A stretch of 58,392 nt of DNA from Candidatus Zixiibacteriota bacterium (lineage in GTDB: Bacteria > Zixibacteria > MSB-5A5 > SM23-73-2). Below are positions 1,402 through 48,977 of this stretch, in pieces. The position numbers were made by a program, and so were the translations under genes. Location of the stretch: the NCBI GenBank assembly GCA_030615745.1, contig JAUWYR010000012.1:1-58392 (forward strand), given 5' to 3'. The notes under the pieces were generated by a model, which saw only the letters and a list, made by a program, of their open reading frames with translations, made no database searches and was not told the DNA's origin. Every line of letters starts with the position of its first letter. Within the stretch, counting starts at the first letter, position 1.

Positions 1402-4086
1402 CTACACATTTTTATCTTCCGAGATCAACTTTTTTATCTCTAAATCAAAAAGCTTATCCAAATTATTTAGGTTAAAATCAATTTTTTCCTTTGGTATTTT
1501 TAACCTGTAAGACCCGGTTCTGTTGTTCTCAATTAATGTTTGGGTGAGTTTGCAAAAACTTTTTATCTGTGTTTTCAAACGGTAAAGATATTTTGCCTGG
1601 TTCTCCCCTGGCTCCAGATCGAGCTTATGTATCCATCCATCCTCACAATTTACTTTAGCCCATGCTAATTTTAAAAGATATTTAAAAGATTTTGCGGGTA
1701 GATATATATATTTTCCATTTATGATGGTTAAAAACTTATCTTTTTTTTGTTCGCCATCTAAAATCAGATAGCTTATCTTTTTCGGTATCTCGAATCTTTT
1801 GTTTTGCTTTCCCACTTTTTTCTCGTCGGATAACCTATTTAAAGTTTCTTTTAACCTTTGAGCAACTATTTCTGGAATAATCTTTTCTAATTCTTCTAAT
1901 TTTATGGTCTTTAATTTATCGAGCTCATACAAATTATTTTTAACCAGAGCCCAGATGAAATCCCTTCCTAAATTAGGTATTCTCAAAGATGCGAGTTTTA
2001 AACCTTTTTCATTCACTCCAAAAAGGACTTTTTGTGAGAGATTTTTTAAAAAATCTATGGTATTTTGCGGAGCATCTCCGTATGGATCAAGAGATTGACG
2101 GTTTTGATTTTTTGTCACCTTTGCAATGAGGTGTGAAGCATCCAAAAGCCAGCTAAGCCTTTCCGCAGCCCCTTTTATAAAGCCTGCTCTTAAACTGTAT
2201 TTTTTCTCAATATCTTTTGTTGGGATATCGGATATCCAGTCTGAAAAAAGCAAAGAGAGCTTCACTTTTCTTTTCTGTTTTAGTGTGAGGACAAGCTCAT
2301 CCTCTAAAAGCGATTTCAGCTTTTGACAGTCTTCGACTTTTTGCTCATAAAATCCTTTTTGTTCCTCTTGCGGTGTGAGACCTACCCATAGCTTTTCACC
2401 ATCATCTGTTTCCAAAAGTTCATAAAACCAACAAAGTTTCCCAAAAAAACTTTTTTGCCCCAATATCTTTTTAATGGCTAATCCTGTTCTTATGGTGATG
2501 CCCAAAAGAGCGAAGGTCTTTCCGAGCTCGGATGCGTAGAGGTTTTCTTTTTCAAGTAAAAATATTTTTTTCTCCAAAAGAAAACCTATTTTTTCTTTTA
2601 ATAAATCTTCATTTAGCTTATCATTTTTTGAGAAAGTTTTTGACAAAACATTTTTCAATTGAAAGATATTTTTGGCGCATCCTGATGCAACGAAATCTAA
2701 GATAATATCTTCTAAGTTAAGCTGGTAAAGTCTGGGTAAAATGGATTGTTCTTTAGTTTCTATATATTGGTCCCATAGGGATTCAAAGTGAAATTGGTTT
2801 GTGGCAATTACAATAGATCTTCCGAAATCCAAAGCCTTTTTTAATCTTCCTGCTCTTCCGGACATATTCTCATATTCTCCCCAGAGGATGGGACAAAGAA
2901 CTGTTTTTTGAGAATATTCTGGTGTTTGATATTTCTGGGTTTCGATGAAAACAGTCTTAGCTGGAAGGTTAACACCCATAGATAGGGTGGTGGTTGAAAA
3001 GATTGTAGTTATTTCCCCTTTTAAGTAAAATTTTTCAATTATATTCCTCTCATCATAAGATAGGTCAGCATTGTGAAAGGCGATCCCTTTTTCAAGACAG
3101 AAAATAAGTTTATCTTTTAAAGAGGTTGGCTCTAATTCGTTTAACTCGGAAATTGCAGAGTTTGCCCTTGGGAGGTCAATTCTTTCTGCAAAATCTATGG
3201 CTAATTTTTCTGACTCGAACTTCCCCTTCAAAAAGACCAGAACCTGCTCATCATCTTTTAAGAGTTTTTCTAAACAAAGGAAAAGAATCTCATCAGGTTT
3301 TTCAGTATCAATTTTTAAAAACTCCTCAATTTCATCCTCCCCAGAATTGTATTTTCTGTAATGAAATTTTCCCTCAAATAAAACTCCCTGCAAAAGCTCG
3401 ACCGGTCTTTTATTTTCATAAAGAAGTTTTAAACCTAACCATTCTGATAATTCTGCGGAGCATCTTGACGATTTGAAATCCCTTCCCTGGCCAGGCAGGT
3501 TAGAAGTTTTTAAAGTTTCGGATAGTACTGCTGATAGTCCTAAGATTTGCGGATGGTATCTGGTGGAAAGTATTTTGGTTAAAATCAGTTCCAAAATATG
3601 ACCTCTTGAATCATCCCCGATCATCTGGAGTTCATCAACTATTAAAAGATTTATCTGAGATAAAAGGTCTAAGTTTTTAATCAGAACCTGGTTGAACTTT
3701 TCATATATAACAATGGCTAAGTCGAAATCACCGTTTTCTAAATCCTGGTCAAATTCTTTTCTGTCCCTTGTTGATATTATAACTTTTATCCCCAGAGGTG
3801 AGTATTTCTCAGAGAAGTCAGAATATTTTTCCTCAGCTATTGCTTTTAAGGGAACCAAAAAGACGACTTTTTTTCTGTGGAAGATATTTACAACAGAGGC
3901 TAACTCTCCGCAAAATGTCTTTCCAGAGGATGTTGGGGCTGATATTAGCAAAGATTCCCCCTCTAAGAGTCTATATTTAGTCAAGACTTCTTTTTGAAGT
4001 GGCAATAGCTTTTCACCTTGATTTTTCTGCCATGATTTGATCACAGATTCTGGTATTCCATATCTTATTAATTTTGAAATATCCAT
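1402..4086 (-). CDS. Ski2-like superfamily 2 DEAD/DEAH-box helicase
   Basis: This is an ATP-dependent nucleic acid helicase of the Ski2/Hel308 group, about 894 aa. Visible motifs: Walker A APTSSGKT (residues 50-57), motif II as DELQ (about 151-154), motif III GLSAVL, a second RecA lobe with STTTLSMGVNLPA, and motif VI MSGRAGR (about residue 406). A long helical C-terminal half follows, as in family members with winged-helix and ratchet domains. The start at 4086 is chosen because the longer frame begins inside the promoter at 4120-4148; MDISKLIRYG then follows SD AGAGAA. Between motif III and SEWLG there is an extra ~20-residue stretch (about 193-213, including FKSSRCSAEL) encoded by a dispersed repeat. 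DNA repair or RNA processing are both possible; the gene stands alone. Confidence 0.85.
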   Translation of the reverse strand: MDISKLIRYGIPESVIKSWQKNQGEKLLPLQKEVLTKYRLLEGESLLISAPTSSGKTFCGELASVVNIFHRKKVVFLVPLKAIAEEKYSDFSEKYSPLGIKVIISTRDRKEFDQDLENGDFDLAIVIYEKFNQVLIKNLDLLSQINLLIVDELQMIGDDSRGHILELILTKILSTRYHPQILGLSAVLSETLKTSNLPGQGRDFKSSRCSAELSEWLGLKLLYENKRPVELLQGVLFEGKFHYRKYNSGEDEIEEFLKIDTEKPDEILFLCLEKLLKDDEQVLVFLKGKFESEKLAIDFAERIDLPRANSAISELNELEPTSLKDKLIFCLEKGIAFHNADLSYDERNIIEKFYLKGEITTIFSTTTLSMGVNLPAKTVFIETQKYQTPEYSQKTVLCPILWGEYENMSGRAGRLKKALDFGRSIVIATNQFHFESLWDQYIETKEQSILPRLYQLNLEDIILDFVASGCAKNIFQLKNVLSKTFSKNDKLNEDLLKEKIGFLLEKKIFLLEKENLYASELGKTFALLGITIRTGLAIKKILGQKSFFGKLCWFYELLETDDGEKLWVGLTPQEEQKGFYEQKVEDCQKLKSLLEDELVLTLKQKRKVKLSLLFSDWISDIPTKDIEKKYSLRAGFIKGAAERLSWLLDASHLIAKVTKNQNRQSLDPYGDAPQNTIDFLKNLSQKVLFGVNEKGLKLASLRIPNLGRDFIWALVKNNLYELDKLKTIKLEELEKIIPEIVAQRLKETLNRLSDEKKVGKQNKRFEIPKKISYLILDGEQKKDKFLTIINGKYIYLPAKSFKYLLKLAWAKVNCEDGWIHKLDLEPGENQAKYLYRLKTQIKSFCKLTQTLIENNRTGSYRLKIPKEKIDFNLNNLDKLFDLEIKKLISEDKNV
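3451..3499 (-). repeat. in-frame repeat insert inside the helicase gene
   Basis: On the minus strand this stretch contains AAATCGTCAAGATG and TCCGCAGA, both also found in the GAF-protein gene (6304-6353) and translated in the same frame there (K-S-S-R-C). Its other end is CCTGGCCAGGCAGG (3486-3499), a copy of the 14-base module found in intergenic hairpins. In the protein it lies where Ski2-type helicases usually have only a short turn between motif III and the 'xxWLG' segment. Confidence 0.6.
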
Positions 4087-4119
4087 TTTAATTCTCTTTT
4101 TTATTATCGGCTCAAACAT

Positions 4120-4148
4120 AATATACTGCACATTTGTGCAGATGTCAA
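4120..4148 (-). promoter_or_regulatory. sigma-70 promoter of the helicase gene with a 16-bp palindromic operator
   Basis: On the minus strand: -35 TTGACA (4143-4148), a 17-base spacer, -10 TATATT (4120-4125). The spacer holds the perfect dyad CTGCACA-TT-TGTGCAG (4126-4141). The first ATG used lies 34 bases downstream of the -10. A repressor bound to the dyad would cover the spacer and block RNA polymerase. Confidence 0.75.
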
Positions 4149-4255
4149 GGAAAAAATAAAAAAAATTTTAGCGCTTTCTTAAAATTTTAGATGAGTTTTA
4201 TAACTTTAAGAAAGAAAACATCTTAGATTTAACTAATGAAAGAAAAATATTAAGA

Positions 4256-4922
4256 AGATGTGTCAGGACCAGTCCTGACATCTTTTTCTAATACTTAAGG
4301 AATAGGAATTCCCGAAGCTAAAGGCATCCCACCTCTGGCGGGATGCAGGCAATCATAAATGATTGCACTCCACTTTTTAAGCGTCAGAAGGAAACTTCTG
4401 ACGCCACCATTAACGCAACCTGAAGGTTGCGGCTACCGATCCAAATCATAATTCTTAGATACTCTCTTTGGGTATCGGAGCCATAAAGGCTCCTCTACGC
4501 GTAGCAGCCTGCCCGGCTAGGGAGGGTTTATCCCTCTGCTGTGAACCATCAAATATCAACCATATACTGTTCTGTTCCCGACAGGTCCCCTGACCTTGTG
4601 CTGTTGCTGAATTTTGAATGCAGAAAGGAATTGCCGAATTACAAATTCGGCAACAACAATGGGAGTTTCTCAGTTTAATCCGCTAAATCCGTTGACCAAT
4701 TTGCTCTTGACTTCGGGTTTTGAGCGTATAATTTTTGGATAACAGAGGATAAGCACAGATTCGTATGAATGCTTCGCATAGAATCTGTGCCTACAAGTTG
4801 AAGGTTTTGATTGCTGAATTAGAAATTCAGCAACAATGAAGAGAAAGAATTTGTTATAGGGTGGGGACCCCCCCGCCAGAGGCGGGGGGATTTCGCTTCG
4901 CTCAACAAACCCCGCCCCTACA
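4256..4922. repeat. large block of palindromic repeat modules
   Basis: This gap has no convincing gene and is almost entirely hairpins. In order: TGTCAGGAC-CA-GTCCTGACA (4261-4280) followed by T's; a GGCATCC/GGATGC hairpin plus GCAATCATAAATGATTGC (4323-4373); GCGTCAGAAG/CTTCTGACGC (4381-4404); GCAACC-TGAA-GGTTGC (4415-4430), which opens a composite to 4540 with GGAGCC(ATAAA)GGCTCC, CTACGCGTAG and an inserted 14-base module (4508-4521); TTGCCGAATT/AATTCGGCAA (4631-4653); a GCACAGATTC/GAATCTGTGC hairpin (about 4754-4795); TTGCTGAATT/AATTCAGCAA (4811-4833); and a G-rich/C-rich element (4857-4922) ending 3 bases before the DUF1848 start codon. Related copies lie throughout the window. Confidence 0.85.
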
Positions 4923-4924
4923 AA

Positions 4925-5749
4925 ATGATAACAAGAAAAGGATATAAACTGGTCATTTCTGCGAGCAGAAGGGTTGACCTTTTGACATTTTATCCAGATT
5001 ATATGCTTGAAAAAATTAACCAGATAGGGATAAAAAACATCCACACCTTGGTTATCTGGACTAAAAATCCTGAAAATATTTTTAAACACAAAAAGTTAAA
5101 CAAAACACTCAAAAGTTTAGACCAGGTCTATATTCTTCTCACGATAACGGGTTTAGGAGGAACAGAGCTTGAGCCAAAAGCACCCAGAGAAGAGATGGTT
5201 TTACCACTTTTGCCAAAACTTATCGATTTTTTAGGGTCTCCAAAAAGAATAGCTATAAGATATGACCCTTTATTGGATGTTTATTATCAGAATAAAATTC
5301 ATCTCACTAACATAGATATAGAAATTTTTAAAAACCTTCTGGAGAATGTAAAAAAGCTTGGGATAGAAAGGATGATAACATCGTATATAACCCTTTATCC
5401 AAAAGTGGTAAAAAGATTAGAAAAAAATAATTTTCAGATAATTTTTCATTCAGAGGAAAAAATAAAAGATTTCATCAAAGAAGAAATGATTCCACTATAC
5501 GAAAAATCGAATATAAAACTTTGCACCTGTGTCTTCCCGAACTTGACTACTATGGGTTGTATCGATGGGGCTTTGCTTTCAGCACTTCATCCTAAAAAAA
5601 AGCCTTGCCCAGTTGCTAAAGATCCTTCACAAAGACCAACCTGCCACTGCACAAAATCAAAAGATATAGGAATGTGGTTTTCTTGTTATCATGGCTGTTT
5701 TTATTGTTATGGAAACCCACACACTCCTTTACTCAACGATTCTCAATAG
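4925..5749 (+). CDS. DUF1848 family protein
   Basis: The 274-aa product matches DUF1848: N-terminal 'ISASRRVDLLTFY', 'VIWTKNPENIF', 'LLTITGLGGTELEP', 'IAIRYDPLLDV', and a C-terminal cysteine cluster (MGCIDGALL, then CxCTKSKDIGMWFSCYHGCFYCYGN). The cysteines suggest an iron-sulfur or radical-SAM-like enzyme, but the reaction is unknown to me. The ATG at 4925 has no Shine-Dalgarno: the bases upstream are the end of a repeat element, so the original leader may have been displaced, or translation may begin slightly downstream. The 3' end overlaps the convergent GAF-protein gene by 17 bases. Family assignment is firm; start is uncertain. Confidence 0.85.
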   Translation: MITRKGYKLVISASRRVDLLTFYPDYMLEKINQIGIKNIHTLVIWTKNPENIFKHKKLNKTLKSLDQVYILLTITGLGGTELEPKAPREEMVLPLLPKLIDFLGSPKRIAIRYDPLLDVYYQNKIHLTNIDIEIFKNLLENVKKLGIERMITSYITLYPKVVKRLEKNNFQIIFHSEEKIKDFIKEEMIPLYEKSNIKLCTCVFPNLTTMGCIDGALLSALHPKKKPCPVAKDPSQRPTCHCTKSKDIGMWFSCYHGCFYCYGNPHTPLLNDSQ

Positions 5750-7847
5750 TTGAAAAACCAGCTAACTCCTTTTTAATCCTCTCACTATTTTTCTTAATCA
5801 TCTCCAAATATCTCAAATTCTCACCTTCAACAAAATCCTTCCCATGCTCAAGAAGTTCTGCTGAACCCAAGATGGAGGAAAGGTAGTTATTGACTTTCAA
5901 ACTTAAATCAAAGAATTTTTCCAAATTTAATTTTTGGCTAAACTTATCTGTTGAAATTCTCCTTAAAGCTAAGCCAAGATAAAAGCTTACAGTTTCAAGA
6001 AAATCGATCTCATCTTTGGTAAATGGTCTTCTTTCCCAGTTTCTCATCTCACCAACAGATATTATTCCAATGGGGGATTGGTCAACAATTAGTGGAACTA
6101 AAACCGCTGAGTTAATCTTTTCATCCATCAAAAGTCCTGCTTCTTCATCTGACATCATGCTTTCCGGGTCATTCTGATTAACCAATACAGGTCTTTTAGC
6201 ATCCAAAACCAAGCGATGCCAGGGAAGCTCGGAGAGCGAAAATCTATTTCTTTTTTGAAGATTTATTCCATCTTCTCTTATCTTATGGGATGATAATGAC
6301 AAAAGCTCTGCGGAGCTCGATGAGTCTTGACGACATCTTGACGATTTTGAATCTTTAAATTCATTTTCAATTTCTTTTTTAATCTCTGGATGGGTTATCT
6401 TTTTTTCAGATAAAACAGATATTCTGCAGAAAGAGACAGGGAGTCCGAAAGTTATAGTCTCAGCAGCATAATCGAATATTTTTTGGAGCTCTTTTTCATC
6501 TAATGATTTTTTTGCGATTTGATTTAGCTTTGTTAACTTTGTCTCTTTTAAACTTAATTTCTCGCAAAGATTAGATTTTAAAAGCAAAAGGTCAAAAAGT
6601 GAACAGATGAGTTTAAGCCATTTTGCATCCTTTGGAAGGTAGTTTTTAGCCCTTATGCTTCCGAAGGTTAACACCCCCCTTTGAGATAAAGGCAAGGCCA
6701 TAACAGACCTTATTCCTGTTACTTTTATAAGACTATCATCCAAAAGGGTATCTGAGGATATGTCCTCTATAATCTGTGGCTCATCTGCGTCTTTTACCTT
6801 TTCTACTAACGTGCCACAGGTGGGAAGGGATCTCTTTTTACTTAACAAAAGATTCCAGTCACCTGCCATAGAGAGACGGCTCATATTTTCCCCGGATGAA
6901 TCTATTACAGCTAATGATAGATAATCAAAATCGACAATCTTTTTCAATAGCTTCGCAACTTTTGGAAGAACATCCTCTATTTTGGAGCCTGATAAAATCA
7001 AATCTGTGACCTCATCTGCAACAGAGATATATGACCTGCGCCATTTATTTCTTTCATATAAAACCGCCCTTTCAGTCATAGCCCCCAAAAGTCTTCCCAG
7101 ACCAGATAAAAACAAAGTCTCCTCATAGTTAAATCTAAAGGGTGATTTATCATATATTCCGATAATGCCAAAGATTTTGTCTTTAAATCTTATGGGGACA
7201 CAGGCAAAAGCTTCGATTTTATCTGTTTCCAAAAAAAGCTTATTGTATTCGGGTAGTATTGTTATCTCATCACAGATTACTGTCTGTTTTGTTGTTATAG
7301 CCTCCTTGAAAAAGCTGTTTTCCTTTGGGATGGAATATAAAAGCTGGATTTTTTCTGAGGGAATCTGCCAGTAGCCCAAAAGAGAAAACTCGCTTGAATT
7401 CAAAGAATTCTTATATATCACCCCCATTTTGTATCTCATTGTTGACATGATTTGAGAGAAAGCCTCTTTTAAAAGATCATCGGAAAGACAAGCTTTTTCT
7501 GGCAAAGATGATAAAGCCTTAATACAGGAGATCTGTCTCAGTCTATCGAGAAGATTAAGGTGAAGCTTTTTACCCCAGAAAAGCAAATTGAAAAATCCAC
7601 TCAAGGAAAAAAAGCCTCCTGAAATAAGTCCGACAGCTTCAAGGGCTTCAAAATAAGGATCGTCCGAGAAGAAAAAGAGTTTTGAAAATAATTTCATTCC
7701 AAAGGTAAAGGAGATAACCAGAAACCCTAATGTGAGTAATTTGAAATTTCGAGGGTAATAGTTTAGATATGCTGGTTTAAATTTCAGGATAAATATGAGA
7801 GTAAAAAGGAATAAAAAAAGTAAAGCTCCATCCTTTAAAAAATGCAT
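5733..7847 (-). CDS. membrane-anchored protein with three GAF domains and a degenerate HisKA-like tail
   Basis: The 704-aa protein begins after a strong SD (AGGAGGGGGAA). Three hydrophobic segments (about residues 5-24, 34-53, 66-90) anchor it. Three GAF-type sensor domains follow (about 115-265, 270-420, 425-635). The last ~65 residues resemble a histidine-kinase dimerisation helix: 'SLKVNNYLSSILGSAELL' aligns with the usual 'HExNNPLtaIlGxAELL', but the phospho-accepting His is Leu and the Glu is Lys, and no ATPase domain follows. It may be a signalling scaffold or a decayed kinase. GAF3 carries an extra ~19-residue Ser-rich stretch (about 497-515, SKSSRCRQDSSSSAELL) encoded by a repeat shared with the helicase gene. 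No response regulator is nearby. Confidence 0.8.
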   Translation of the reverse strand: MHFLKDGALLFLFLFTLIFILKFKPAYLNYYPRNFKLLTLGFLVISFTFGMKLFSKLFFFSDDPYFEALEAVGLISGGFFSLSGFFNLLFWGKKLHLNLLDRLRQISCIKALSSLPEKACLSDDLLKEAFSQIMSTMRYKMGVIYKNSLNSSEFSLLGYWQIPSEKIQLLYSIPKENSFFKEAITTKQTVICDEITILPEYNKLFLETDKIEAFACVPIRFKDKIFGIIGIYDKSPFRFNYEETLFLSGLGRLLGAMTERAVLYERNKWRRSYISVADEVTDLILSGSKIEDVLPKVAKLLKKIVDFDYLSLAVIDSSGENMSRLSMAGDWNLLLSKKRSLPTCGTLVEKVKDADEPQIIEDISSDTLLDDSLIKVTGIRSVMALPLSQRGVLTFGSIRAKNYLPKDAKWLKLICSLFDLLLLKSNLCEKLSLKETKLTKLNQIAKKSLDEKELQKIFDYAAETITFGLPVSFCRISVLSEKKITHPEIKKEIENEFKDSKSSRCRQDSSSSAELLSLSSHKIREDGINLQKRNRFSLSELPWHRLVLDAKRPVLVNQNDPESMMSDEEAGLLMDEKINSAVLVPLIVDQSPIGIISVGEMRNWERRPFTKDEIDFLETVSFYLGLALRRISTDKFSQKLNLEKFFDLSLKVNNYLSSILGSAELLEHGKDFVEGENLRYLEMIKKNSERIKKELAGFSTIENR
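6304..6353 (-). repeat. in-frame repeat insert inside the GAF-protein gene
   Basis: The plus strand shows AGCTC-TGCG-GAGCT at the left and TCTTGACGA twice (about 6325 and 6338). Minus-strand AAATCGTCAAGATG and CTCCGCAGA are shared with 3451-3499 in the helicase gene and read in the same frame. A third, non-coding relative (CGTCTTGACGATAG) lies near 8027-8040. Confidence 0.6.
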
Positions 7848-8519
7848 TTCCCCCTCCTGATTTTAAGTTTTGATTTTTATGATATAACTTTTTTCTTAGT
7901 TTCATCACTCATCCCTGACCAAGAGGTCTTTCCGTGAGGTAAGAGTTGATGAAGTCTTCTATTTTTTTATCGACTTTTCCAGAGAAACGTTTAGTTAATC
8001 TCTTGCTCCTTGAACGCGTCTTGACGATAGTATGAGGATTTTTAAAGCTTTAAGGTTAAGTAAACTGCCAATCAGAGTTAAGAAGTTTTCTCTTTGCGTT
8101 CTCCGTTGGTCTTAAGACCAACGGATAGCAAAAACTCCCAACAGTCCTAAAAAAAATTACATCTTCTTCTTCAATTTCGCAGAGGGATAAACCCTCTGCT
8201 ACGCGTAGAGACCTGCCCGTCTGGGAGCCTTTTTGGCTCCAATCCCTTCAATCGTATGCCCACCTTGCCTCAAGGTGGGCCTTTTTCGCCCAGGTTGGGG
8301 GCAACTTGGACTACCGCTGGTAGGGGAGTCCCTTGTGGGCTCCCGAAGGACGGGAGGGGACAAGCCCCTCCTCTACGGCAATGAGTAGAGCTTTCATGGC
8401 TCCGATACCCAGGATTGTGTCTTTTGAGGCATCGGCAAAAGGATTTGCCGATGCACAAGCTTCGGGAATTCCTATTCCCGAAGCATCAAAGAAACAGATT
8501 ATTATAGCGAGATTATTTC
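7848..8519. repeat. gene-free gap with palindromic repeat modules
   Basis: I see no gene here. Contents: a relative of the in-ORF repeat (about 8027-8040); perfect palindrome CCGTTGGTC-TTAA-GACCAACGG (8103-8124); a reverse-oriented composite (8178-8240) with GCAGAGGG/CCCTCTGC, CTACGCGTAG, an inserted 14-base module (8212-8225) and a GGAGCC-type hairpin; GCCCACCTTG/CAAGGTGGGC (8258-8280); a GTAGGGGAG...CCTCCTCTAC element (8320-8377); GGCATCGGCA/TGCCGATGC (about 8428-8453) and GCTTCGGGAAT/ATTCCCGAAGC (8459-8485). Confidence 0.8.
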
Positions 8520-13671: not shown

Positions 13672-13757
13672 AAATCCTCCTTTTTTGGTTTCCACCCTAT
13701 TTTTAAAGTAAGATTTTTTTTATAAAAGTCAATCAGAATTGAAAAATTTTTTCAATT

Positions 13758-13840
13758 GGTGGCGTCAGGAGTTTCCTCCCCTGGCCGGGCAGGCTGACGC
13801 TTTTTTCTGTCGGGAGGTAACTCCCGACAGCACTGAAAAA
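13758..13840. repeat. left copy of an ~80-bp direct repeat: two hairpins with a T-run
   Basis: GCGTCAGGAG...CTGACGC (13762-13800) has the 14-base module CCTGGCCGGGCAGG inserted in its right arm (13780-13793), then TTTTTT, then CTGTCGGGAG/CTCCCGACAG (13807-13830). The first hairpin plus T-run looks like an intrinsic terminator. Nearly the same sequence recurs at 14366-14450, on the other side of the dockerin remnant. Confidence 0.85.
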
Positions 13841-13869
13841 GGTGCGATAATCTACCCATTCCGTGCTGG

Positions 13870-14325
13870 TTGGATCTTCGTTCTTCGTTAGAATCTTTTG
13901 GGACCGGTGGGTGGGATTTAATGCTTACCAAACTGGATGCCTCAGGCAACACCTGCATCGGAGAATTTGTCACATCGACTGTTATGAGTGTTTCCTGCTC
14001 AGTTACCAGCCCGCCTACGGTGGTAACCTCCCCTGCTACAATAGTGACCACCCCCGCCACGCAAGTGACATCGCCTGCTACTGTGGTCACGACCGTTTGT
14101 GAGCTGATCTGCGGAGATGTCAACGACGATGGAAGTATAGACTTATCAGATGTCATCTATTTAGCAAACTATAAACTCAAAGGCGGAGACCCACCACCAG
14201 ACCCAATTTGTCGAGCTAATCCCAATGGTGATGGAGTAATAAACCTGGCTGACGTTATATACTTGGCGAACTATTTGTTAAAAGGTGGACCTGCTCCGCA
14301 TGATTGTGGAAACTACCAAGATTAG
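13870..14325 (+). pseudogene. C-terminal remnant of a beta-propeller (SBBP-like) dockerin protein
   Basis: The frame holds the end of a large secreted protein. 'TGGWDLMLTKLDASGNTC' is typical of SBBP-type beta-propeller repeats; a Thr/Pro/Val linker with VTSPAT-like repeats follows; then two dockerin type I modules ('GDVNDDGSIDLSDVIYLANY' and 'NPNGDGVINLADVIYLANY', each with the Ca-binding D/N-x-D/N pattern). There is no signal peptide, no propeller body and no SD, and the 5' end runs into a repeat 30 bases upstream, so the gene is truncated. It is enclosed by near-identical direct repeats (13758-13840, 14366-14450). A shortened expressed protein from the TTG at 13870 cannot be excluded. Confidence 0.75.
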
Positions 14326-14365
14326 AGAGTAAACGGTAAACGGAAAACAGTAAAAAACCTTTAAT

Positions 14366-14702
14366 GGTGGCGTCAGGAGCTTTACTCCCCTGGCCGGGCA
14401 GGCTGACGCTTTTTTCTGTCGGGAGGTAACTCCCAAAAGCACCGGAAAAAATTACATCTGTGCTGGTCGGATTCCCTGACTCCAACAGGTATCCCGCCAG
14501 GTCTGGGGACCTGGCGGGCACAGAATGGTAGATGGTTAATAGTTGATGGTTCATAGCAGAAGGATAAACCTTCTGCTACGCGTAGAGGAGCCTTTATGGC
14601 TCCGATACTACTTAGAGGGTAAACGGTAAACGGAAAACAGAAAACAGTAACAGAGGGGAAAATTTAATTGTTGGGGCAGGAGTTTAACTCCTGCCCCAGC
14701 TT
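14366..14702. repeat. right copy of the ~80-bp direct repeat and further hairpins
   Basis: 14366-14450 repeats 13758-13840, including the module at 14389-14402. Next come a CCCGCCAGGTC/GACCTGGCGGG hairpin (about 14502-14520), loose TAGTTGATGGTT repeats (14528-14554), a reverse-oriented composite with AGCAGAAGG/CCTTCTGCT, CTACGCGTAG and GGAGCC/GGCTCC (14555-14603), A/G-rich GTAAACGG repeats (14614-14652, also 14330-14358), and TGGGGCAGGAG/CTCCTGCCCCA (14672-14698). Confidence 0.85.
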
Positions 14703-21932: not shown

Positions 21933-22210
21933 GTAGGTCGATTTTCTAAAATCGACATCTGTTTTGTCGAAATTGGAATTTCGACCTACTTTTTTTCTCA
22001 CAGAGTAGAGGAGGGGTTTATCCCCTCCCGACCACCAACGGGAGACCACCCTGGCCGGGCAGGCGAGGGTCTCCCCTACATATTAGGTTTATTTTGTTGG
22101 ATAAGCACTATTTGTTGCCAAATTTATAATTCAGCAATTCCTTAGCTGTATTTCAAATACAGCAACAACAGAGGACGATCTTTTACTGCATTAGAAATGC
22201 AGCAACAACA
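21933..22210. repeat. palindromic repeat block
   Basis: Double-hairpin element 21933-21989: outer GTAGGTC/GACCTAC, hairpin 1 GTCGATTTT-CT-AAAATCGAC, spacer ATCTGTTTT, hairpin 2 GTCGAAATT-GG-AATTTCGAC. Then GGAGGGG-TTTAT-CCCCTCC (about 22007-22028), a GGGAGACC/GGTCTCCC hairpin holding the 14-base module (22050-22063), and three hairpins with an AGCAAC-type right flank: TTGCCAAATT/ATTCAGCAA (22116-22137, imperfect), GCTGTATTT-C-AAATACAGC (22145-22163), CTGCATT-AGA-AATGCAG (22186-22202). Confidence 0.85.
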
Positions 22211-34584: not shown

Positions 34585-34973
34585 TTCAAACCTGAAGGTT
34601 TGAGTTACATTTCCTGGCCGAACAGGCTGTAACTTGAGGCTTTGGTCATGATAATAAGTTGCGGCTACCAATTCAAATCATAGTTTTCTTACACAGCTAC
34701 GGGTATCGGAGCCATAAAGGCTCCTCTACGCGTAGCAGAAGGTTTATCCCTCTGCGAAATTGAATAACAAAATATTGTGCCCGCCAGGTCCCCTGACCTG
34801 GCGGAAATGTCTGGTCGGGTCAGGGGACTCGACCAGCACAGATGTGGTTTTCCCCAGTGCTGTCGGGAGTTACTTCCCGACAGATAATAGCGTCAGCCTG
34901 CCCGGCCAGGGGAGGAAACTCCTGACGCCACTATTTAAGGAATGCATCCCGCCAAAAGCGGGGTTTCACTCCA
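34585..34973. repeat. palindromic repeat block
   Basis: CAAACC-TGAA-GGTTTG (34587-34602); GTTACA/TGTAAC around a module (34613-34626); composite 34658-34756 with a shared linker, GGAGCC/GGCTCC, CTACGCGTAG and an AGAAGG-TTTAT-CCCTCT hairpin; CCCGCCAGGTC/GACCTGGCGG (about 34781-34804) with a paired GGTCGGGTC/GACTCGACC follow-up; CTGTCGGGAG/TCCCGACAG (about 34859-34882); GCGTCAG/CTGACGC with a module in its left arm (34897-34910); a truncated GCATCCCGCC element (34942-34972). Confidence 0.85.
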
Positions 34974-40282: not shown

Positions 40283-40470
40283 TCCCTGATCCTTCGGGAA
40301 TCCGAAGGATGCTTCGCATAGGAATTCCCGAAGCTAAGTAGCATCGGCAAATCCTAATGCCTTTGCATCAAAAGAACAATATGTTGTGCCCGCCAGGTCC
40401 CTCCTGGCCGGACAGGCTGACCTGGCGGGAATACCTGGTCGGGTCAGGGGACCTGACCAGCACTGATGTA
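40283..40470. repeat. palindromic repeat block running into the hutH 3' end
   Basis: CCTTCGG-GAAT-CCGAAGG (40283-40299); GGAATTCCCGAAGC and GCATCGGCAAA pieces (about 40321-40352); CCCGCCAGGTC/GACCTGGCGGG with an inserted module (40403-40416); CTGGTC/GACCAG (about 40435-40460). The right end, read on the minus strand, contains AATTACATC then GTGCTGGTC, which also occurs at about 14451-14470 and encodes the last residues of HutH. Confidence 0.8.
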
Positions 40471-44629: not shown

Positions 44630-44648
44630 ATCTCTTGATGCATACGCA
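44630..44648. repeat. 19-base exact repeat ATCTCTTGATGCATACGCA, copy 1
   Basis: It is identical to 47791-47809 inside the AsmA-like gene. A variant sharing 13 of the first 14 bases is at 51813-51829 in the iscR 3' end. It provides the SD of the four-helix bundle gene. Confidence 0.75.
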
Positions 44649-46541: not shown

Positions 46542-48977
46542 TTATTTTTTCTCTAAAAGTTTTTGTAGAAAATCCTTTGCTTTTTCCTCAAGCTCTTTTT
46601 TTAATTTCTCATCTTTTATTTTCACTTTCTCCTGAAGTAGTTTTTCAGCTCTTGATGTTTGTAAGGCAAATTTTGGAGCAGAAGCTTGACCTGAGATCAC
46701 TATATCTAATACTAATCTTCCCTTCTCATCCTTAAAGAACTCTGTTAGCTCGCCTAATAGATCGAATCTTTTCGAGAGTTGGGGTGAAAGATAGAGGGTA
46801 AGGTAATAATCTACGTATCCCTCCAGGGTGATATATCCGGAAAGCTCCCAGTCAAAATCTTTTGTCCGGGCAAAGAAATCTTCAAAGTGTAGTTTTCTGT
46901 CCTCGATTCTAAAAGAGTTTTTCAGAGTTTTTATTTTTTGGTCTTTGAGCTCTTTTATCTTCAAATATTCGGACAGGAGGTTAAGGATTTTTAGATTTAT
47001 AAGTTCACCATCTGTTATGGTAGCATTTCCTGAACCTGAAAGGGTGTTTTTGATCTGGTCAACTGTGTTTCCCTTGCCTGAAAATGTGGCTACTAAATTG
47101 AGCTTTCCAAAAAGATGGTCTTTGGCCGGCGTGAATCTGGACAAAAAATCATTTGCCTCAAGGTTGGAGCTTGAGATCTCAAAGTTGAAAATCAGATGTT
47201 CTGGGTCATTTAAATCTGCTTTAGCTTTTCCTCCCAGATTTCCCGTGTAAACATTTGAGACAAAATTGTCAAGCTCTAAGATTCCATCAGTTAGGTAAAG
47301 CTGAAAAGCTAAATTTGAAAATTCTATTTCTCGGAACAAAAGCTTTTGAACATTTATTTGACCAGAAAGATTCAAGTAGGGGAATGGAATTGTATCTGAG
47401 ATTGCCATTTGGGGCTCACCCTTTTCTTTTTTTGCTGGAAATATCTCATCTAAATCGATATAAGGTGAGGAGAGTGTGAACTGTAAAAGTGGTGGGCTTT
47501 CTGTTTTTTTCAAAAGAAAAGATAAAAGATTTTCTATTTTACCATCAAGGCTAAAAGAGGATTTGCCTAAAGATGCGAAAAGATTAGTGATTTTCAAATC
47601 ATTTTGTATCAAGTTCAAATCACCATTTAACTCATCTAAAGGAACGCCTAAAAGGGGATGCGTTGCTTCTATTTTTCTCAAACCGATGTTGCCAGAAAGT
47701 CTTGCCCTATCTATTTTTTTAATCTTTCCATAAGCTTTAAAATCAAACTTGACAAAGCCTTTAAATTTAGCCCCTTCCGGGAGTTTACCTATCTCTTGAT
47801 GCATACGCAAATTCTCTAAAAGTGATAAATCCAGGTCTGCTTTAAAATCCAATGATAGATTGGGGTCTTTATAATTATCGACCACAGCTTTTATTTCAAC
47901 CGGGGACTCACAAACCTTTGCCTGGGAAGAAAAAAAGCTTAAGCTTTTGGAATCGAAGTTTATCTCACCATAGGGCATATTAAAAGGATATGGATAATCG
48001 GATGATTCCAATTTAACCTCTCTGAAAACCACCTTGCCTTCGATCTGAGGAAAAGGCTCGAGCTTTGGCTCACCGGCATAGGTTGCAGAGATTTTGAGCT
48101 TACCTGAGCTTTTCATCTTTTCGAGAATTGAACTATCCTCAAAAGGAATAGAGCCTAAAAGTTCAGAAACGGAAATCTTTTCAGAAGAAAGATTAAGATA
48201 AACAAATGGTTTTTCTGATATGTTTTTTACTTTACCTTTTAATTCAATTTCCACCTCACCCAGAGTTATTTTAAGCTTTTCTATCAAGAGTGAATCGCCT
48301 AAAAAGTTCATCTTGATATCATGCTCTAAGCTGAGATAGAATTCTGGAATCTGTTTTTTTATGGTTGGAAAATTCAGGTCTATTTTTTTAATTTCGATTT
48401 TACCTTTAGCATATACAATCTCTGTTTGGGGATCCAAAGAAAGCTTTGCTTGCTGTCCAATGTGCTCCAAAGTAATTTTGTATCCTTTGGTCTGGTCAAA
48501 ATAGTCTATTTTCCCGTCTTTTATCTCCATTTTGTCAAACACAATAGGGGGGAGGGTAAATTCCCCTTCTTTTTTCACTAAATCATCGATATTTAAAAAA
48601 CCCTGTTTGTTTTTTGCTAAAGCTATAACCGGTTTTTCTAATATGATTTTTTTTATTTCAATTTTCCTTTTCAAAAGCGGGAAAAACTTAACCCTGATTG
48701 AGAAACGCTCAAAGGTTAAAAACTTTTTTTGAATAAACCCTTCACGAGCATACACGGTCATTCCTTTCACATCAGCACCCAATCCACCTAAAATAGATAT
48801 TGAGACATCTTTGATTTCCACTTCTCTATTCAAGGCTTCTTCCAACCTCGGCTCTATCATACTCAGGAGTTTTTCTTTGGTGAAAATGAGCTTGACCCCA
48901 ATGCTTGAAACCAAAACAATGATCAAACAAATTGCAACAATCCATAAAATTATCTTTATACTTTTTTTTGTAGCCAT
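46542..48977 (-). CDS. AsmA family protein
   Basis: The 811-aa protein has one N-terminal membrane helix ('IILWIVAICLIIVLVSSIGVKLIF') followed by 'REVEIKDVSISILGGLGADVKGMTVYAREG' and a long beta-rich body. The C-terminal AsmA-like part has 'GSGNATITDGELINLKILNLLSEYL'. Such proteins are proposed to move phospholipids to the outer membrane. The stretch LRMHQEIG (about residues 390-397) is encoded by a 19-base repeat found again upstream of the four-helix bundle gene. SD GAAAGGAGA lies at the end of the small upstream gene. Confidence 0.9.
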   Translation of the reverse strand: MATKKSIKIILWIVAICLIIVLVSSIGVKLIFTKEKLLSMIEPRLEEALNREVEIKDVSISILGGLGADVKGMTVYAREGFIQKKFLTFERFSIRVKFFPLLKRKIEIKKIILEKPVIALAKNKQGFLNIDDLVKKEGEFTLPPIVFDKMEIKDGKIDYFDQTKGYKITLEHIGQQAKLSLDPQTEIVYAKGKIEIKKIDLNFPTIKKQIPEFYLSLEHDIKMNFLGDSLLIEKLKITLGEVEIELKGKVKNISEKPFVYLNLSSEKISVSELLGSIPFEDSSILEKMKSSGKLKISATYAGEPKLEPFPQIEGKVVFREVKLESSDYPYPFNMPYGEINFDSKSLSFFSSQAKVCESPVEIKAVVDNYKDPNLSLDFKADLDLSLLENLRMHQEIGKLPEGAKFKGFVKFDFKAYGKIKKIDRARLSGNIGLRKIEATHPLLGVPLDELNGDLNLIQNDLKITNLFASLGKSSFSLDGKIENLLSFLLKKTESPPLLQFTLSSPYIDLDEIFPAKKEKGEPQMAISDTIPFPYLNLSGQINVQKLLFREIEFSNLAFQLYLTDGILELDNFVSNVYTGNLGGKAKADLNDPEHLIFNFEISSSNLEANDFLSRFTPAKDHLFGKLNLVATFSGKGNTVDQIKNTLSGSGNATITDGELINLKILNLLSEYLKIKELKDQKIKTLKNSFRIEDRKLHFEDFFARTKDFDWELSGYITLEGYVDYYLTLYLSPQLSKRFDLLGELTEFFKDEKGRLVLDIVISGQASAPKFALQTSRAEKLLQEKVKIKDEKLKKELEEKAKDFLQKLLEKK
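47791..47809. repeat. 19-base exact repeat, copy 2, inside the AsmA-like gene
   Basis: Identical to 44630-44648. On the minus strand it encodes L-R-M-H-Q-E-I in frame. Confidence 0.75.

Follow-up and report, generated by a model that had tools for sequence, protein, structure and literature searches.

Evidence for precise, in-frame insertion of 15-18 bp mobile units in the genome of a Candidatus Zixiibacteriota bacterium

The small dispersed repeats (SDRs) of Nostoc are 21-27 bp long and are found within other repeats, and we know of no enzyme responsible for them; they were reportedly described by Elhai et al. in 2008 (Genome Res 18:1484). Passages of PMC3116915 and PMC4390886 present SDRs as very small mobile repeats, and a passage of PMC4390886 places the insertion of SDR5 between nucleotides 3 and 4 of the highly iterated palindrome HIP1. 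Larger palindromes have been found inside genes as well. Rickettsia palindromic elements (RPEs), which measure 105-146 bp and have long stem-loops and terminal inverted repeats, lie in frame in many unrelated conserved proteins (PMC2229807, PMC3733652), and the intragenic repetitive extragenic palindromic sequences (REPs) of the GTAG and CGTC superfamilies are small palindromes located in DNA-repair, tRNA and other protein genes; REPs are 20-40 bp long, their tag being followed by a long stem, and have a short tail that mostly fits CCA, and those with the CGTC tag have no dedicated transposase (PMC3733652). In the IS200/IS605 family (Y1 HUH transposases), paired REPs (REPINs) and REP-associated tyrosine transposases (RAYTs), a hairpin is recognised and non-autonomous units are moved in trans (PMC7290912, PMC3116915, PMC2817692); IS200/IS605 elements use hairpins and insert 3' of a tetra- or pentanucleotide with no target duplication (PMC7290912). 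Here we describe 15-18 bp hairpin units in a 58,392-nucleotide stretch of a Candidatus Zixiibacteriota bacterium (contig JAUWYR010000012.1 of assembly GCA_030615745.1, hereafter the window) and in the rest of its 2.28-Mb genome, where sequence comparison indicates, almost beyond doubt, that they are mobile and have been inserted precisely and in frame into protein genes.

The units appear from their sequences to be very small non-autonomous mobile elements of two builds: an 8-9 base head leading into a mini-hairpin (families F1 and F2), and a 15-bp near-palindrome (F4). F1 is TCGTCAAGATGCTYCGCA, exactly 18 bp, with a nine-base head and then a nine-base mini-hairpin whose 3-bp stem takes the forms TGC-TTC-GCA, TCC/GGA and, in a nested block, CTC/GAG. 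F2 was reached by tracing a variant of the helicase-gene insert at 2066-2101 and consists of TCTCTTGA plus a TNN-ATAC-NNA hairpin, again 18 bp. The genome holds 75 exact F2 copies, with none for the reversed control, and 124 against 11 when one mismatch is allowed. In all 75 exact copies both NN positions are complementary or wobble, the stems being TGC/GCA in 42, TCG/CGA in 20, TCC/GGA in 8, TCA/TGA in 2, and TAC/GTA, TTG/CGA and TTC/GGA in one each. F4 is CCTGCCCGGCCAGG plus one base and corresponds to the 14-base intergenic module of the initial annotation, with 16 matches within the window against 0.39 expected; another 15-bp form, TCTCTTGACCTTCGG, was found nested inside other units. Altogether, there are more than 100 copies of 15-18 base hairpin units in the genome, both in non-coding DNA and in many proteins, core ones included.

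Precision of insertion was examined by aligning the host proteins with orthologues from the sister species and from relatives in the order, with one genome per species and with some queries made of several gene segments joined. At about 20 genic sites the orthologues lack exactly 6 or 12 residues. Gaps of six residues were seen at the first helicase site, in HflX (FSK[SSRCSA]NVV), a VWA-like membrane protein (RRF[AEHLDD]FES), an ATPase (CQ[NRQDAP]QSS), a lipoate-ligase-like protein (against family f3), SMC (two sites), AsmA, ComEC, PriA (two sites), GatB (ETG[LLMHTQ]KKA), LptF/G, a SurA-like protein, a HAD hydrolase and a metallo-beta-lactamase-fold protein (DAL[CVCIKR]EDDP versus DALEDDP), as well as in LAD[MRMHQE]IGYPPGDES versus LADIGYPPGDES. 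The six AsmA residues are absent from the same-genus orthologue and from two others in the order. Twelve-residue gaps, which match a 36-bp composite, occur at the second helicase site, in a CoA-dehydratase-type protein and in a protein kinase. The underlying DNA carries exactly 18 or 36 additional bp, in one orientation or the other, and the target site is not duplicated. Solved GatB chains likewise have no insert, and HflX shows a clean six-residue gap against the sister species, while solved HflX aligns with a shifted four-residue gap, indicating that the loop is variable in length independently of the units. The sister species shares none of the genic sites tested and, therefore, the insertions postdate the split of the two.

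A second, independent check came from repeats within the genome itself. Each copy was compared with 346 kb of DNA from its own genome after joining the flanks with differing lengths removed, in search of an uninterrupted counterpart (empty twin). The best removed length was 15 in 13 of 14 cases for F4, 18 in 13 of 15 for F2, and 18 or 36 in 3 of 3 for F1. Since empty twins in repeats give these fixed lengths, unit length is a property of the element and not the outcome of reading-frame selection. The reading frame of a host gene is kept because 15, 18 and 36 bp are whole numbers of codons.

The initial annotation proposed that the pieces enter different genes in the same frame. Our results agree that they are mobile and lie in frame in unrelated proteins, and the check that it proposed, absence from orthologues and recurrence of the peptide elsewhere, has a positive outcome at about 20 sites. 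They show no fixed frame: genome-wide, units have entered on both strands and in at least five of six frames. More than half of the exact F2 copies (42/75) are inside open reading frames (ORFs) of at least 150 codons, in five reading frames, giving SLDAYA, LLMHTQ, CVCIKR, RMHQEI and AYASRD. A TGA is present in the sixth frame, which ends long ORFs only twice, at apparent gene ends; these counts give no measure of frame avoidance, as ORF calling by itself leaves out frames with stops. This pattern would fit translation of the inserts without proving it. Some units lie at gene 3' ends (L036, L139, L283, L045) and provide the stop codon or the last residues, which is another route of protein change.

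F2 has a defined target. Its copies are inserted directly 3' of YNNN, mostly CNNA (36 seen, 4.2 expected). Of the 72 distinct sites, 51 have C at position -4 (p=8e-22) and 71 have C or T there. Genic (30/38) and intergenic (23/28) copies each show this preference when considered on their own, and so, by eye, do most exact F2 copies of the sister species. Every exact F2 copy also ends in CNNA, an end that is partly built into the search pattern (ATAC..A, with C and A included); as the exact copies thus regenerate the target at their own 3' end, units can stack or nest. A tandem trimer of 18-bp units lies head-to-tail at C34:40205-40258, and its units differ in sequence, which argues for serial insertion and not slippage. 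Pairs of units 18 bp apart were found in the sister species (L331, L332). Almost all F2 of the TCC/GGA type lies within F1, and does so at many places, so that the 36-bp composite is mobile as a whole.

The helicase and GAF-domain genes of the window (Table 1) were first linked by two short stretches said to be repeat pieces, and both are indeed present on the minus strand of the two genes: AAATCGTCAAGATG at 3461-3474 and 6334-6347, and TCCGCAGA at 3452-3459 and 6307-6314. The pattern AAATCGTCAAGATGCTCCGCA with up to 3 mismatches has 26 matches in the genome, with none for the reversed-pattern control, and on that account the sharing of F1 pieces by these genes is far beyond chance; a broader F1 pattern, TCGTCAAGANNNTYCNNN, with one mismatch allowed, gave mostly background matches. 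In frame, both copies give KSSRC...SA, as had been noted from the translations, but the E-L of the proposed second peptide SAEL is flanking sequence, outside the repeat. The residues are not shared by distant orthologues, and SSRCSA recurs in the HflX insertion described above. At the helicase F1 site, GRDFKSSRCSAELSEW is aligned with GKDAEELAGW of the same-genus orthologue. The earlier placement of this insert at a surface turn, between motif III and the WLG segment, agrees with an alignment to Hel308 structures, where it falls inside a 19-residue gap, at the turn that leads from motif III to the following helix. Relatives in the order also lack 19 residues here, not 6, and an F4-like 15-mer is present besides F1. 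The 14-base module that the initial annotation saw in the helicase is there (CCTGCCTGGCCAGG, 3486-3499), although it belongs to the separate F4 family and is not part of the same piece; its length of 15 bp is taken from intergenic copies, as another insert occupies the spot in the sister species. That insert has 13 residues (STKSPSRSERGKD, from DNA containing CCCGGTCTGAGCGGG) and lies at the same turn as the F1/F4 pair, the sister-species helicase match being split in two, with a single stop in this region. Because of this different insert, the turn has probably been hit repeatedly.

Two further insertions in the window had not been noticed before, one in the AsmA-family gene and the other a second, 36-bp insertion in the helicase gene (V3). 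V3 adds 12 residues that relatives in the genus and in the order do not have, and its 28-base core is found exactly in 7 places in the genome. The GAF copy (V2) is longer than the first helicase insert since an 18-base block, itself unit-like, sits inside it. It is also the least clean site, as the two species of the genus already differ in this region: relatives in the order lack the whole region, and the boundaries against the sister species are unclean.

Table 1. Host genes, units and related intergenic regions in the window
Feature	Position	Strand	Observation
Ski2/Hel308-like helicase gene, host of three tiny inserts (F1, F4, V3)	1402..4131	-	
V3 composite, 36 bp: F2 (TCTCTTGATCCATACGGA, 2077-2094) nested in F1; peptide NRQSLDPYGDAP, other frame	2066..2101	-	
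F1 unit TCGTCAAGATGCTCCGCA, in-frame 18-bp insertion; K-SSRCSA with flanking AA	3454..3471	-	exactly 6 residues absent from same-genus orthologue
F4 unit CCTGCCTGGCCAGGG, 15 bp, inside helicase gene	3485..3499	-	sequence match only
F4 unit interrupting intergenic palindrome GTAGCAG^AGGGTTTATCCCTCTGC	4508..4522	+	empty twin, 0 mismatches in 22 after removing exactly 15 bp
GAF-domain protein gene, host of V2	5733..7847	-	
V2 composite, 36 bp: TCGTCAAGATG[TCGTCAAGACTCATCGAG]CTCCGCA; peptide SSRCRQDSSSSA	6309..6344	-	
TCGTCAAGAC, head of F1 unit only	8018..8027	-	weak
F4 unit in intergenic palindrome GCGTCAG^GAGGAAACTCCTGACGC	13779..13793	-	by eye; outside empty-twin rows
F4 unit in intergenic palindrome GGAGACCCT^(C/T)GTGGTCTCC	22049..22063	-	
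F4 unit in intergenic palindrome	40402..40416	-	empty twin, 0 mismatches after removing 15 bp
F2 exact copy at ORF of 23S rRNA-intervening-sequence protein, N-terminal part or upstream; CVCIKR on minus strand	44631..44648	+	
AsmA-family protein gene, host of F2	46542..48977	-	
F2 unit TCTCTTGATGCATACGCA in AsmA-family gene; minus-strand peptide RMHQEI	47792..47809	+	
Palindromic-mosaic intergenic regions	4270-4920, 8090-8480, 13700-14500, 22000-22100, 34600-34950, 40380-40430		

The F2 copy at 44631..44648 may lie upstream of the true start codon, the Pfam domain beginning at residue 29. Near-identical copies of the F4 unit at 13779 are found at 14389 and 34897, and those do have empty-twin rows. 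The intergenic regions listed last are mosaics of palindromic repeats (GTAGCAGAGGGTTTATCCCTCTGC, GCGTCAGGAG...CTCCTGACGC, GGGGAGACC...GGTCTCCC) with the 15-bp F4 inserted into them. A non-coding relative of the shared pieces, previously placed at about 8027-8040, amounts to a weak 10-base match to the F1 head slightly to the left.

Outside this genome, exact F1 18-mers are present in other families of the order (G005, G009, G010), where the copies read are intergenic hairpins. F2 is expanded in this species and slightly so in the sister species, where a few copies add the stems TTC/GAA and CTC/GAG. An exact 21-mer had one match among 84,980 genomes, in Mitsuokella, with about 0.2 expected by chance according to our own arithmetic. 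In viral contigs, F1 had no match and F2 had one, chance-like, inside a coding stretch. Some copies within the genome have neighbours in common. The F1 variant TCGTCAAGATCCTTCGGA has four copies (L049, L052, L053, L055) with the common left flank AATTAAATAATGCAAA at the edge of a larger GTAGGGG-type repeat, and seems to be carried along by that bigger repeat. Three F2 copies (C12:26291, C37:2, C42:2) have identical flanks, two of them at contig ends beside an ORF with HMTDNGS (transposase-like), and are probably one F2 carried within a multicopy insertion sequence. The PriA gene contains, besides its two exact F2 insertions (C9:61408, C9:62765), a diverged peptide that looks like a third (NKSLDAFAKRPE).

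The explanation we favour, and consider reasonably likely as a whole, is that these are non-autonomous units whose movement, in the form of single-stranded hairpins, probably depends on an IS200/IS605-type transposase (Y1/RAYT) acting in trans. Such an HUH enzyme would cut out or copy a unit as a hairpin of single-stranded DNA and join it 3' of a tetranucleotide, and genic copies would persist because five of six frames are stop-free and the hexapeptides fall in tolerant turns. The Y1 route is preferred since the lack of target duplication, insertion 3' of a tetranucleotide and the hairpin are all marks of IS200/IS605, and the genome has three Y1_Tnp genes with intact frames, located at C17:32268, C25:17668 and C65:20014, one of which was checked by Pfam. 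Several points weigh against it. None of the three Y1 genes in the genome is flanked by F1 or F2, and Y1 genes occur in 28 of 30 relatives whatever the copy number, so that their presence does not track the elements. Each unit has one hairpin with a 3-bp stem, in its 3' half only, and IS200/IS605 needs hairpins at both ends. The flank preference of F1 is weaker than that of F2 (C at -5 in 11/18) and was found post hoc, the CNNA end of F2 carries the pattern effect mentioned above, translation of the inserts is putative, and a local look at GC skew for replication-strand bias was confounded by gene orientation. Given the missing flanking units, the equal presence of Y1 genes in element-free relatives and the single hairpin, we place the Y1 route itself slightly short of probable.

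Two other origins deserve weight. A host process without a dedicated transposase, such as template switching during replication, or repair synthesis, by which short hairpin snippets are pasted into breaks, would account for units so tiny, with one weak hairpin, for the absence of transposase genes flanked by units and for the location of units in other palindromes, which are fragile sites. It is nevertheless unlikely, as it would have to produce base-exact length, fixed ends and a defined target motif at dispersed non-homologous sites, and to do so with equal length precision in the independent families F1, F2 and F4, which is hard to obtain via template switching. We are similarly doubtful that another class of enzyme (a different HUH protein, a Cas1-like protein, a tyrosine recombinase or a reverse-transcription route) inserts the units. 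Y1 genes and copy number are unlinked, and Nostoc SDR5, according to a passage of PMC4390886, inserts with like precision at a fixed point of HIP1, but insertion 3' of a tetranucleotide with no target duplication fits Y1 best among known enzymes (PMC7290912).

Mobile units of their own are also a better description than fragments of larger known repeats (RPEs, REPs/REPINs or miniature inverted-repeat transposable elements). The units do occur within mosaics of larger intergenic palindromes, and the CGTC within F1 is also the tag of a REP superfamily (PMC3733652). However, what is inserted in genes and missing from empty twins is exactly 15, 18 or 36 bp, with no larger palindrome attached, and derivation from such repeats is very improbable. 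Like RPEs, to which the initial annotation likened them, the units are inserted in frame in unrelated protein genes, but we reject that identity: RPEs are 105-146 bp long with terminal inverted repeats, the inserted units here are 15-18 bp or a 36-bp composite, with a 3-bp stem in F1 and F2, and no sequence relation was shown. F1 resembles CGTC REPs in having CGTC (TCGTC) near its 5' end; its hairpin starts 4-5 bases after the tag, has a 3-bp stem and ends 3' in GCA, F2 and F4 have no tag, and so a CGTC-tagged REP was discarded. A GTAG-tagged REP or REPIN with its RAYT was rejected as well, since F1 and F2 have no GTAG head and the Y1 genes are not flanked by either. Ordinary protein motifs, conserved or convergent, or ancestral residues that relatives have lost, which might have explained sharing by two genes alone with the DNA identity coincidental, are refuted to near certainty by the same DNA giving unrelated peptides in at least five frames, by copies in non-coding DNA and on both strands, and by orthologues of several families and solved structures without the inserts.

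The mobile units share with IS200/IS605 the lack of target-site duplication and, for F2, insertion 3' of a defined tetranucleotide, whereas known IS200/IS605 units and REPINs are larger and have a hairpin at each end, and RAYT genes have their own repeats on their flanks. With Nostoc SDRs they have in common a very small unit (about 20 bp) and precise insertion shown by empty sites. They differ from SDRs, as those are described, in length (15 and 18 bp), in target (YNNN/CNNA, not HIP1), in sequence and in lineage, and beside them they present dozens of in-frame copies in protein genes and stem covariation. Their nearest known counterparts are thus Nostoc SDRs, intragenic REPs and RPEs, among which they stand out as smaller, exactly codon-sized, directed to a defined target motif, and nested and mobile together.

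The mobility of sequences of about 20 bp has been an open question since SDRs were described. Here the ends, length, target, absence of duplication and covarying mini-hairpin were defined by comparison, which makes the mechanism directly testable in vitro with short oligonucleotides and the three candidate enzymes. Tentatively, at 15-18 bp these may be smaller than any other known transposable units: mini-hairpins of single-stranded DNA that carry their own target motif at the 3' end, are moved in trans, and by their codon-multiple length would seed random hexapeptides through the proteome, essential enzymes included. The approximately 40 genic F2 copies, together with the genic F1 copies, constitute a natural insertion-tolerance experiment (GatB, PriA, SMC, HflX, LptF/G) in which even essential proteins tolerate random six-residue inserts, and the units show one way in which proteins acquire short indels of precise length.

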